From Candidatus Atribacteria bacterium (GTDB lineage: Bacteria > Atribacterota > JALVIU01): 9,136 bases of DNA. Below, one piece after another: positions 2,373 through 7,023 of this stretch (positions are counted from its first letter, which is position 1; the number at the start of each line of letters is the position of its first letter). The translations under genes were made by a program, and so were the position numbers. Below the pieces are notes generated by a model. The model was not told where the DNA came from, ran no database searches, and worked only from the letters and a program-made list of their open reading frames with translations. Location: the NCBI GenBank assembly GCA_027028665.1, contig JALVIU010000293.1, positions 1-9,136 on the forward strand, given 5' to 3'.

Positions 2373-2390
2373 AAAAATAAATAGATAGAA

Positions 2391-2474
2391 AGCCAAAGAG
2401 GGTAGGTGCCATGTGGCTTAAAATTGCCTACTGAGGCTAAGAGAAAAATAAAAAGGACCTCTTATGCCTCATAG
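2391..2474 (+). promoter_or_regulatory. L10-type ribosomal protein leader with antiterminator
   Basis: The RNA upstream of rplJ has the hallmarks of the L10(L12) leader. The outer helix is AGCC (2391-2394) with GGCU (2435-2438). A purine-rich internal loop (AAAGAG against UGA) follows, of kink-turn type. The next helix is GUAGG (2402-2406) with CCUAC (2427-2431), capped by a GCC/GGC hairpin (2408-2417). A second fold excludes this one. Positions 2428-2443 can pair with 2459-2474: UAAGAG with CUCUUA, UGAGGC with GCCUCA, and CUA with UAG. This gives 15 pairs with single-base bulges at C2431 and U2465. The second fold consumes the 5' arm and loop of the terminator at 2450-2493 and would act as an antiterminator. 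L10(L12) binding should favour the first fold and hence termination, as known for Bacillus subtilis rplJL. Confidence 0.82.
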
Positions 2475-2493
2475 GGCATAAGAGGTCCTTTTT
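2450..2493 (+). terminator. Intrinsic terminator/attenuator in the rplJ leader
   Basis: A perfect 14-bp inverted repeat, GGACCTCTTATGCC (2455-2468) with GGCATAAGAGGTCC (2475-2488), closes a 6-nt loop. It extends through A5/T5 (2450-2454 and 2489-2493) to 19 bp, and the U-tract UUUUU follows the 3' arm. It lies upstream of the rplJ start, not after a gene. It must therefore be an attenuator that is conditionally bypassed, controlled by the leader fold just upstream. Confidence 0.9.
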
Positions 2494-2519
2494 ATTAACA
2501 GGAAAGGGAGCGTGAAACG

Positions 2520-3466: not shown

Positions 3467-3487
3467 TCTCGAATAATCATTACCATA

Positions 3488-3518
3488 TTGATATAAATAA
3501 AGGGGTATCTACTATAAA
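3488..3518 (+). promoter_or_regulatory. Candidate promoter embedded in the post-rplL terminator
   Basis: TTGATA (3488-3493, 5/6 to the -35 consensus) is followed by TATAAA (3513-3518, 5/6 to the -10), with a longish 19-nt spacer. The overlapping CTATAA would give 18. The -10 falls in the loop of the terminator hairpin. A transcript would start near 3525, about 27 nt before the next gene, after most of the hairpin has been passed. Only 16 nt separate the terminator from that gene, so a promoter here is needed unless transcription reads through. It is a weak prediction by eye. Confidence 0.3.
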
Positions 3519-3536
3519 TAGGTACCCCTTTATTTT
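3495..3536 (+). terminator. Intrinsic terminator after rplL
   Basis: AAATAAAGGGGTA (3495-3507) pairs with TACCCCTTTATTT (3523-3535). The stem continues inward as T3508-G3522 (wobble), C3509-G3521, T3510-A3520 and A3511-T3519, leaving a 7-nt loop. It is followed by a T-rich tail (TTTTACTTTTT). It closes the rplJ-rplL unit and lies just before the next coding region. Confidence 0.88.
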
Positions 3537-3551
3537 ACTTTTTAGCAGCCT

Positions 3552-5039
3552 ATGAATGAAAAAGAGATAGATTTCTTTTTAAAAATAGAAAATACCTTAT
3601 ATCTTGATATTCCATTCTCAAGAAAAATGGAATATATTATTAATTTTATAGCAGAGTTTTATAATCCAGAAATAGCTGCTTTTATTTCTATATCACATGG
3701 TAAAAAGAAGGATAGATTTGCAATATTGTGTGCTAAAGAAAAAAATAGGCTAAATCTGAGGTTGCTTATCGAAGAGAATAATGTATTTAAAAAAAAGCTT
3801 CCGGATCTCAAAAAAATTTTTGAAAATTTTGATAATAATAGACATGAGTATATACTGCCTATATCTCATGCATACAAAGGTAACAAATTTCTCTTTCTTT
3901 ATTTATCCTTTATAGACAATGAACTTAAAGGAAGAAGAGAATTAGAATTATTATTAAAATTATTACAAAATTATTACAAATATTATATTAAAATGACTTC
4001 TTTAAAAAAAGAGTATAACCAAACAAAATTGCTATATAATATAGCCAAGACAATTGATACCTTAGATGAGATAAATATAAATAAATCCTTCTCTAAGATA
4101 ATGAAATTTATAAAAAAGAGTATATCATATGATTATTTTTCATTATATATAAAAAAAGAAGATGAAACCCTTGTACGTGTTGATCTTGGATCTTCTTATG
4201 AAATAGATTTGCTCCATGATTTTAAATTTCATTTTGGAATAGGTCTTTCTGCATGGGTGGCAACTGCAGAAAAACCAGTAATTATAAATGACCTCTATAA
4301 GAAGAGGAGATTTAGATTAGCAAATGACATTAACCCTTATATTAATTCTATAATTTCTATGCCTCTTTTATTTAAAGGTAAGGTAGTAGGGGTATTAAAT
4401 CTTGCGAGAAACTATCCGTATAAGTTTTATAAGAAGAATCTTAAGATGTTAGAAATTATAGGCAGTCAAATTGCTTCTACTCTTGAAAATATAAAGCTTT
4501 TGAATAAATTAGAAAATATGGCTTATACAGATGGGCTTACTGGCCTATTTAATTATAGATACTTTATTCATGAGTTTGAAAAAGAATTAAAAAGGGCAGA
4601 GAGATATGCTTATGAGGTATCTTTGATAATTATAGATATAGATGATTTTAAAAAAGTAAATGATAAATTTGGACACAATGTAGGGAATATAGTACTTAAA
4701 AAGCTTTCTAGTATCTTATCTACAGCTCTAAGAAATGTGGATATATTGGCCCGATATGGAGGAGAAGAATTCGTTATCCTTCTTCCTAATACCGATAAAG
4801 AAGGTGCGGGAGTTTTGGCAGAAAGATTGAGAAAGAACATTAAAGAAGAATTTTTAAAGATATATTCTGAAGATCTTCCGTCTATTACCATTACACTGGG
4901 AGTTTCTACTTTCCCAGAAGATGGAAATAATATTTATGAACTTATAAAAAATGCAGATATTGCCTTGTATGAGGGAAAAAGGTTAGGAAAGGATAAGGCA
5001 ATTTTATATAAAGGAACTTTATTGGATGAAAAAAAATAA
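3552..5039 (+). CDS. GAF-GGDEF protein, probable diguanylate cyclase
   Basis: 495 residues, no signal peptide or membrane span, so cytoplasmic. Residues 1-150 look like a degenerate GAF fold (FISIS, DRFAILCA and YILPISHAYKG strands), followed by a linker helix. A clearer GAF sensor domain spans about 155-315 (GLSAWVATAEKPVIINDL; PLLFKGKVVGVLNLA). The GGDEF domain spans about 322-487: TDGLTGLFNYRYF (326-338), metal-binding IDIDDFK (361-367), GGEEF at 403-407, and an RxxD inhibitory site (R394-D397) exactly five residues upstream. This predicts GTP to c-di-GMP conversion with product inhibition. One oddity is that the usual Asp of FGHxxGD, which contacts guanine, is Asn (N379). The GAF ligand is unknown. 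The start ATG 3552 has no obvious SD. The 3' end overlaps the next gene by 14 nt. Confidence 0.85.
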   Translation: MNEKEIDFFLKIENTLYLDIPFSRKMEYIINFIAEFYNPEIAAFISISHGKKKDRFAILCAKEKNRLNLRLLIEENNVFKKKLPDLKKIFENFDNNRHEYILPISHAYKGNKFLFLYLSFIDNELKGRRELELLLKLLQNYYKYYIKMTSLKKEYNQTKLLYNIAKTIDTLDEININKSFSKIMKFIKKSISYDYFSLYIKKEDETLVRVDLGSSYEIDLLHDFKFHFGIGLSAWVATAEKPVIINDLYKKRRFRLANDINPYINSIISMPLLFKGKVVGVLNLARNYPYKFYKKNLKMLEIIGSQIASTLENIKLLNKLENMAYTDGLTGLFNYRYFIHEFEKELKRAERYAYEVSLIIIDIDDFKKVNDKFGHNVGNIVLKKLSSILSTALRNVDILARYGGEEFVILLPNTDKEGAGVLAERLRKNIKEEFLKIYSEDLPSITITLGVSTFPEDGNNIYELIKNADIALYEGKRLGKDKAILYKGTLLDEKK

Positions 5040-5622
5040 TTTTTATACAGTAAAATATATAGTGGAACATATATCTGCAATTTTGCCTGAGTCTTTTTCT
5101 TACCATTATATCCTATCAGAGACCTATTCTATTATAAATAGCCAACCAGATATTCCGATGAATCTTCTTAGGGTACGGATCCTGGATCAGATTGTTAAAT
5201 CCAATGAGACATTTTTTAAAAAATTAAAAAATGATATGAAGGAGATAATGGATGCCTACATTCTTTTATTAAGGGAAGATAGACACCCAAGTGAAGTTAT
5301 GGATATTATTTGGACAGAACTTGGATTAAATTCAAAGGAAAAGGAAGATTTTTTGTTATATATAAAAGGGACTCCTTTTCTATACTGTGAAAAAGCTGTA
5401 AAAGAGAGGCCAGATCTTGTCAGATTGTATGTAGATCGACTTTTTGATAAAGAGAAAATAATAATAGGTTTATATTATTTCGAAGGACTTACATTAAAAG
5501 AGATATCTCAGGCTCTTTTTATATCACATAAAAATGTGGTTATAAATTTTTCTTTAATTGCTTTTAAATTTTTGTTTGAAGTGTGTATAAAAATTTGCAT
5601 AAAGGAGAAAAATAAAGTATAA
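5026..5622 (+). CDS. Unknown protein with C-terminal sigma-70 region-4-like helix-turn-helix
   Basis: 198 residues. Residues 1-130 match no family I recognise and look alpha-helical. Residues about 134-185 resemble sigma-factor region 4: the DKEKIIIGLYYFEGLTLKEI segment (141-160) parallels the usual RE-KLIL-LYYFEGLTLKEIAEVLG pattern, and SQALFISHKNVV (161-172) is the expected turn and recognition helix. No sigma region 2 or -10-binding motif is present. The recognition helix lacks the usual basic VRQIE-type residues, reading VVINFSLIAFKF. It may therefore be a degenerate or protein-binding helix-turn-helix rather than a working sigma factor. ATG 5026 lies inside the upstream GGDEF gene (14-nt overlap), with AAAGGA at 5010-5015, so translation is probably coupled. 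No signal peptide is seen. The function is unknown; a transcriptional regulator is the best guess. Confidence 0.7.
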   Translation: MKKNNFYTVKYIVEHISAILPESFSYHYILSETYSIINSQPDIPMNLLRVRILDQIVKSNETFFKKLKNDMKEIMDAYILLLREDRHPSEVMDIIWTELGLNSKEKEDFLLYIKGTPFLYCEKAVKERPDLVRLYVDRLFDKEKIIIGLYYFEGLTLKEISQALFISHKNVVINFSLIAFKFLFEVCIKICIKEKNKV

Positions 5623-5623
5623 T
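5595..5623 (+). promoter_or_regulatory. Candidate promoter for the tig-clpP-clpX-lon operon
   Basis: A perfect TATAAT (5618-5623) overlaps the stop codon of the preceding gene. It lies 17 nt after TTGCAT (5595-5600), which keeps only the TTG of the -35 consensus. Transcription would start near 5630 and give a leader of about 17 nt ending in the tig SD AGGAGG (5634-5639). No terminator separates the preceding gene from tig, so read-through is also possible. Confidence 0.45.
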
Positions 5624-5646
5624 TATAAATTATAGGAGGAAACGAA

Positions 5647-7023
5647 ATGGCAGATATTAAAGAAATTGAAAGAAAAAGTTCTAAAATTAAATTTAAAGTG
5701 CTTTTACCAGAAGAAGAGGTAAAAAAGGCTTATTCAAAAACCCTTACATCTTTGTCGAAACAGATAAAAGTGCCCGGATTTAGAAAGGGAAAAGTCCCTA
5801 TAAACATTCTCAGAATGCATGTAGGGCCAGAGAAACTGAAATCAGAAGTTATTGATTCTATATTTTCTGATTTTTATAGTAAGGCAAGAAAGGAATTGGA
5901 TTTTATCCCTGTAGGATATCCTGAAATCACTGATTTAGATTTTGAAGAAGGAAAAGAGTCTTTCTTAGAGATAGAGGTTGATATTGAGCCTAACATAGAG
6001 CTTCCAAATATTGAAGATATAGAGGTAGAAAAGTTAAAAGTAGATGTTACCGAGAAAGAGGTTGAAGATACAATAGATGAGTTAAGACATTCAATGATGA
6101 CCCTTGAACCAATAGAAGATGAAGAGATAAAGGGAAAAAGAGATGAAGTTGTTTTTGCAAAGCTTGATATAGAGGCTAAAAATGATGAACTGAATGAAAA
6201 ATATAGAGACTTTTTTCATAAAGAGGAAGTTCCTATATATTTCGAAAAAGAGGGATTAGAAAATTTAGATAAAGAAGTGGTAAAGAGGATAAAAGGGGCA
6301 AAAATAGGAGAAGAGGTGACTTTTACATATACTTTCCCAAACGATTTTTATCTGGAAGACTTGAGAGGTAAAGAGGTAAAAGTCAAAATAGTACCTAAAG
6401 ATCTAAAGAGAATAATTATGCCAGATGCAGGTGATGAATTTGCGAAGGACTTGGGGTACGAGACGTTTGAGGAGTTGCGAAAAGAGATATATGAGAAATT
6501 AAAAAAGGAAAAGGATGGAAGAGAAGAAATAAGGCTTGAAAATCAGATAATAAAAGAACTTTTAGATAGAACTTCTTTTGACCCTCCAGAGATATATGTG
6601 AAGAGAAGGAGGGAAGCACTTAAGAGAGATTTTATTGAAGAACTAAAGAAGAACAATCTTACTCTAAAAGACTATTTAGAGCAGAATAATCTAAGGGAAG
6701 AAGATTTAGAAAAATATTATGAAGAAGAGGCAAAAAATCAATTAAAAATTTCTATGATTTTTGATGAGATCAAGAAAGAAAAGAATATAGAAGTAGTAGA
6801 AGAAGATGTAGAAAAAGCAATGGAAGACTTTGCATCCTCTTATAGAATTTCTAAAGAAAAGGTAAAAGAGCTCTACGAGAGAGATGAGAAACTTAGATCT
6901 TATTTAAAGGATAGAGCAGAAAAAGAGAAGATAATAAAATATTTGAAAAAGCATGTAAAGATAAAGGAAGTTGATAGTATAGAAAAAGAGGAGAGTGAAA
7001 ATACAGATGGTGAAAATAAATAA
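5647..7023 (+). CDS. tig: Trigger factor (ribosome-associated chaperone)
   Basis: 458 residues, close to the usual 430-450. Trigger factor docks on L23 at the ribosomal exit tunnel and shields nascent chains. The N-terminal ribosome-binding domain (about 1-115) carries the signature loop [10 protein letters not shown] (42-51). The FKBP-like PPIase domain is about 155-252 ([20 protein letters not shown], 220-239). The C-terminal chaperone arms fill about 253-440. The usual aromatic IPGFE-type segment of the PPIase pocket is replaced by LDKEVV-like residues, so isomerase activity may be weak or absent (inference). The protein is extremely rich in Lys and Glu and ends in a disordered acidic tail (442-458). 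ATG 5647 follows AGGAGG by 7 nt. It heads the tig-clpP-clpX-lon cluster and overlaps clpP by 17 nt. Confidence 0.96.

Follow-up and report, generated by a model that had tools for sequence, protein, structure and literature searches.

The leader in front of rplJ, in a 9,136-nucleotide contig of Candidatus Atribacteria bacterium (the whole stretch analyzed here, hereafter the window), very probably functions as an autogenous transcription attenuator of rplJL of the Bacillus subtilis type. Its aptamer family, the mutual exclusion of its folds, the order in which these folds appear and their recurrence in relatives were obtained by computation, while the binding of L10 and its effect on termination would hold by analogy with B. 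subtilis. The original prediction, made from the sequence of this leader, had described a three-state attenuator, and this reading is supported by the aptamer identity, the mutual exclusion, the folding order and the matched complementarity in relatives.

The genes of the locus are arranged in one direction in the order nusG-rplK-rplA-[leader]-rplJ-rplL, and the leader is contained in the 154-nt gap between rplA and rplJ, directly upstream of the latter (Table 1). A scan of the + strand found no promoter-like site between rplA and the terminator; a promoter just upstream of the leader was thus rejected, and the leader is probably transcribed from upstream. The region 3467-5647 of the window, behind rplL, contains no rpoB. 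A terminator-like hairpin is found there at 3495-3535, together with genes for a GGDEF protein and for a small protein whose C-terminal segment is sigma-70-like, and beyond these lie frames taken to be tig, clpP, clpX and lon. The rpoB gene of this genome lies on other contigs; among the genomes sampled in the phylum, it is close behind rplJL in families f2 and f5 and elsewhere in f3, f4, f6 and f7.

Table 1. Features of the rplJ leader and of the genes behind it, in positions of the window
Feature	Position	Strand	Evidence
L10_leader (RF00557) match, aptamer and terminator	2375..2503	+	cmscan 53.9 bits vs gathering score 44
Predicted L10(L12)4 aptamer (anti-antiterminator)	2391..2438	+	Rfam alignment, folds
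Antiterminator 5' strand, common to the 3' strand of the aptamer	2425..2443 (2432-2443, plus 2425-2429 or 2427-2430)	+	Folds, duplex energies
Antiterminator 3' strand, common to the 5' arm and loop of the terminator and the first bases of its 3' arm	2459..2478 (2459-2471, plus 2472-2475 or 2474-2478)	+	Folds, duplex energies
Intrinsic terminator hairpin	2448..2495	+	Fold -34.2 kcal/mol at 37 C; Rfam alignment; scan
Likely Shine-Dalgarno region of rplJ	2502..2511	+	Pairing probabilities 0.00-0.17 over 2502-2510 (terminator/aptamer fold)
rplJ, ribosomal protein L10	2520..3047	+	NF000955.1, E 7e-50
rplL, ribosomal protein L7/L12	3074..3466	+	TIGR00855.1, E 1.1e-43

That an L10-type aptamer precedes rplJ was borne out by the RF00557 match, which scores above the family cut-off, covers the whole length of the model, terminator included, and is the only one in the window's own genome. 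The aptamer is closed by a helix (2391-2394/2435-2438) in the register of the Rfam alignment, followed by a kink-turn signature, read from the sequence only, that consists of an AAA bulge (2395-2397) and GA/GA (2398-2399, 2433-2434). Further elements include a stem (2402-2407/2426-2431), a hairpin (2408-2410/2415-2417) and UUAA at 2418-2421. At the level of sequence, the hallmarks of RF00557, namely, the AAA bulge, GA/GA and the CUUAA that makes the UAA internal loop, are all present at the aligned positions. The terminator has a G+C-rich stem from 2453 and a U-rich tract, UUUUUAUU, from 2489, and an A-tract is able to extend the hairpin from 2448. The gap between aptamer and terminator, given originally as 11 nt, is indeed short, with a small correction to the figure: it is 9-14 nt, counted from the end of the closing helix at 2438 to the A-tract or to the G+C-rich stem. 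The leader is an ordinary, well-formed further example of an RNA switch type that is already known. The hairpin at 2448-2495 is nearly symmetric with the A-tract on its 5' side, such that a terminator-like hairpin followed by U is also seen on the - strand. Sub-threshold Rfam matches over the hairpin to plastid and snoRNA families were judged to be chance.

Transcription arriving from upstream, as the lack of a promoter-like + strand site from rplA to the terminator makes probable, would also suit a constitutive partial terminator in the operon, reducing rplJL in comparison with nusG-rplKA, next to a non-functional aptamer. We regard this as highly improbable, since the aptamer has kept its conserved features, kink-turn and UUAA, with a score that exceeds the cut-off of the family, and aptamer and terminator are kept together across the phylum. 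Moreover, L12 is present in several copies, and rplJL is needed at a higher, not a lower, dose than rplKA.

The attenuator reading centers on a third helix. The segment 2428-2443 (CUACUGAGGCUAAGAG) pairs with 2459-2474 (CUCUUAUGCCUCAUAG) through 15 bp at a duplex energy of -17.0 kcal/mol, consisting of CUA/UAG (3 bp), a bulged C2431, UGAGGC/GCCUCA (6 bp), a bulged U2465 and UAAGAG/CUCUUA (6 bp). This is base by base the pairing with two bulges that had been proposed, and it is the best + strand partner in the window. When all 23-nt stretches of the + strand of the window were compared, the terminator arm was the best partner of the 3' strand of the aptamer (-23.1 kcal/mol), the next outside the leader reaching -17.3; on the - strand the top partner was, as expected, the exact reverse complement of the aptamer strand. 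The antiterminator is extended as the transcript grows, by CCUA 2427-2430/UAGG 2472-2475 at a 3' end of 2476 and by UGCCU/GGGCA at 2479, and the form preferred by the fold once 2478 is out comprises 2432-2443/2459-2471 plus UGCCU 2425-2429/GGGCA 2474-2478, 17 bp in total. The copy-like sequence noted earlier in the 3' arm of the terminator, GGCAUAAGAG at 2475-2484, does exist, yet it is a necessary consequence of a common target, because the terminator 5' arm pairs with its own 3' arm as well as with the aptamer 3' strand.

To follow the order of folding, equilibrium (non-kinetic) folds were computed for truncated transcripts beginning at 2385, at 37 and 60 C. At both temperatures, the aptamer alone was found with the 3' end up to about 2461, the antiterminator dominated at 3' ends from 2470 to 2482, and the terminator appeared together with a refolded aptamer from 2485. 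Folding with and without constraints gave the same picture: at the 3' end 2475 the antiterminator fold reached -29.4 kcal/mol versus -19.6 with the aptamer kept, and in the full leader the order was reversed, with -54.1 for the terminator state versus -44.4 for the antiterminator, a difference of about 10 kcal/mol in each case. Growing-transcript and constrained folds thus agree with the original prediction that the three overlapping structures, anti-antiterminator, then antiterminator, then terminator, exclude one another. In these models, the order of folding is that needed by a kinetic attenuator switch.

In the fold with terminator and aptamer, most of the likely Shine-Dalgarno region of rplJ is left unpaired, which favors transcriptional over translational control. 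An Escherichia coli-type repressor site, at which L10(L12)4 on the aptamer would lower rplJ translation, with the hairpin acting simply as a terminator or site of processing and the antiterminator pairing being coincidental, is very unlikely, even though the aptamer is of the same kind as that of E. coli, in which L10(L12)4 acts on translation (PMC10931766). Such a site leaves unaccounted for the strong hairpin with its U-tract between aptamer and start codon, the open Shine-Dalgarno, and a complementarity of own arms that exceeds that of shuffles and swaps inside and outside the phylum. When the antiterminator fold was forced, the leftover 3' arm of the terminator paired with the rplJ Shine-Dalgarno (within 2484-2510 of the window), and such pairing in the modeled read-through state could damp rplJ translation.

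For the comparison with relatives, 50 genomes of the phylum were used, in 42 of which the L10 gene was detected, the window's genome being the sole member of its family in the set. A first search of 61 genomes detected RF00557 in 22, and more leaders were added by reading upstream of rplJ, yielding 41 leaders in which aptamer and terminator were located (5 placed by hand). The duplex energy of the aptamer 3' strand with the terminator 5' arm was then compared between own arms and swapped or shuffled ones. With one leader per genus, own arms averaged -13.09 versus -11.18 for swapped arms (permutation, p = 0.0003); the own-arm advantage was retained in an exact permutation over the seven families of the phylum (p = 0.0026) and with the window left out (p = 0.004). 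The window's own pair was the extreme one (-18.1), dinucleotide shuffles of its terminator arm matching that energy at p = 0.002 and arms from the other families of the phylum being all poorer. A swap of the linker only (the bases after AGG) was not significant in the phylum (p = 0.13), indicating that the signal needs more than the lineage-specific extension.

The antiterminator strands differ by lineage, reading UGAGGC-UAAGAG/CUCUUA-U-GCCUCA in f1, GAGGUGAGA/UUUCACCUU in f5, CCUGGGGAG/CUCCUCAGG in genus g5 of f4, and CUGGG..GGCUUU/AAGCUCCCGG in genus g11 of f6. In 31 of the 41 leaders, the AGG of the aptamer was predicted to be mainly paired with the terminator arm once the arm is out. It was not mainly so paired in the folds of the g11 leaders L034, L036 and L041, and in L034 the terminator arm pairs with the 5' strand of the aptamer instead. 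Own arms had no advantage in the duplex comparison in f3, f7 and parts of f2 and f6. The best-sampled family, f5, in which the leaders align gap-free here, had 95% paired cells in the antiterminator helix versus 42-64% for slid partners; variation was little, with 1 of 9 pairs changed on both sides, and shuffled partners did as well in 172 of 500 cases. The expectation that relatives would support the pairing was mostly upheld, in that arms are matched across lineages, with little compensatory change within f5; what speaks for the pairing is thus complementarity matched from lineage to lineage, as judged from sequence comparison, and not classical covariation.

Complementarity might also arise by chance where a purine-rich strand of the aptamer meets terminator arms rich in pyrimidines, for the GAGG conserved in the aptamer pairs with many CCUC- or CCUU-containing arms, and swapped arms share part of the energy. 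Reversed arms in the phylum were likewise weakly better than shuffles (27/500), and part of the phylum signal may thus come from composition and repetitive pyrimidine runs. As an account of the pairing as a whole, chance is nevertheless extremely improbable, given that own arms beat both composition-preserving shuffles and swaps and that the window holds the extreme pair.

Several variations were seen among these leaders. Four of genus g13 in f4 (L012, L015, L019 and L020) have about 72-74 nt between aptamer and terminator and an apparent extra hairpin, compared with 7-18 nt in most of the phylum. In f5 leaders, e.g., L005, L009, L010 and L011, several members of one genus, the conserved G of the aptamer GAGG, which forms the kink-turn G-A pair, is replaced by C, U or A. 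No conserved short frame with a ribosome-binding site starts between aptamer and terminator in the 41 leaders, and a leader peptide like that of B. subtilis, which belongs there to an accessory leader-peptide/Rho layer and does not define this type of attenuator, was rejected on this ground.

The same analysis was applied beyond the phylum, where a scan of 386 genomes detected RF00557 in 60. In 36 leaders from outside the phylum, own arms reached -12.78 versus -9.97 for swapped arms (0/20,000 permutations). With one leader per family (29 families), the own value of -12.63 compared with -9.31 for shuffled (0/500) and -9.88 for swapped arms (0/20,000), and neither reversed arms nor the 3' arm put in place of the 5' arm produced any effect in these families. 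The overlap of aptamer strand and terminator arm thus looks general across RF00557 in these comparisons, a mildly new point. Whether this sharing is a general, unannotated third helix of RF00557 across many lineages, with L10(L12)4-dependent attenuation rather than translational repression as the usual mode, is in our judgment an evenly balanced question.

Under the attenuator reading, RNA polymerase, probably arriving from rplA, would transcribe the aptamer first. When free L10(L12)4 is scarce, the aptamer 3' strand would pair with the emerging 5' arm and loop of the terminator, and the antiterminator would prevent timely formation of the terminator, such that rplJL is transcribed; read-through would be the default provided that the antiterminator is formed early enough and is maintained. 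With L10(L12)4 in excess, the kink-turn aptamer would be held closed and the terminator 5' arm left free to pair with the 3' arm (2475-2494), halting transcription before rplJ.

The leader shares with that of E. coli rplJL, by analogy with the literature, the ligand and the recognition motif, and differs in the level of control, which in E. coli is translation (PMC10931766). As in RF00557, a kink-turn/UAA aptamer and then a terminator stand immediately before rplJ; the antiterminator is unannotated in the Rfam model, which contains the aptamer and terminator helices only. The L10 leader was listed as predicted in a comparative study of 2013 (PMC3766115), and a review of 2024 regarded the regulatory region as widespread, noted that its mechanism may diverge outside Bacillus and called for experiments (PMC10931766). 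What is added here is the swap-and-shuffle evidence, which suggests that pairing with the aptamer 3' strand is built into the terminator 5' arm; it lends computational support to an attenuation logic that reaches a distant phylum and many RF00557 leaders and names the bases to mutate.

In B. subtilis, L10(L12)4-dependent attenuation with three structures was demonstrated in 2015 by binding, footprinting, in vitro transcription and mutants: L10(L12)4 holds the aptamer and blocks the antiterminator, and termination follows (PMC4538822). This published mechanism agrees with the logic ascribed to the window, and in both leaders the anti-antiterminator (the aptamer), antiterminator and terminator exclude one another. 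The structures in B. subtilis share 8 and 5 nt, whereas the antiterminator here is mostly made of the aptamer 3' strand and the terminator 5' arm. The B. subtilis leader is 213 nt long, follows a mapped promoter and encodes a leader peptide, in contrast to the window, where no promoter-like site was found from rplA to the terminator and a conserved leader peptide was not seen either. The mechanism itself is already known from B. subtilis, and the window is a clear further member.
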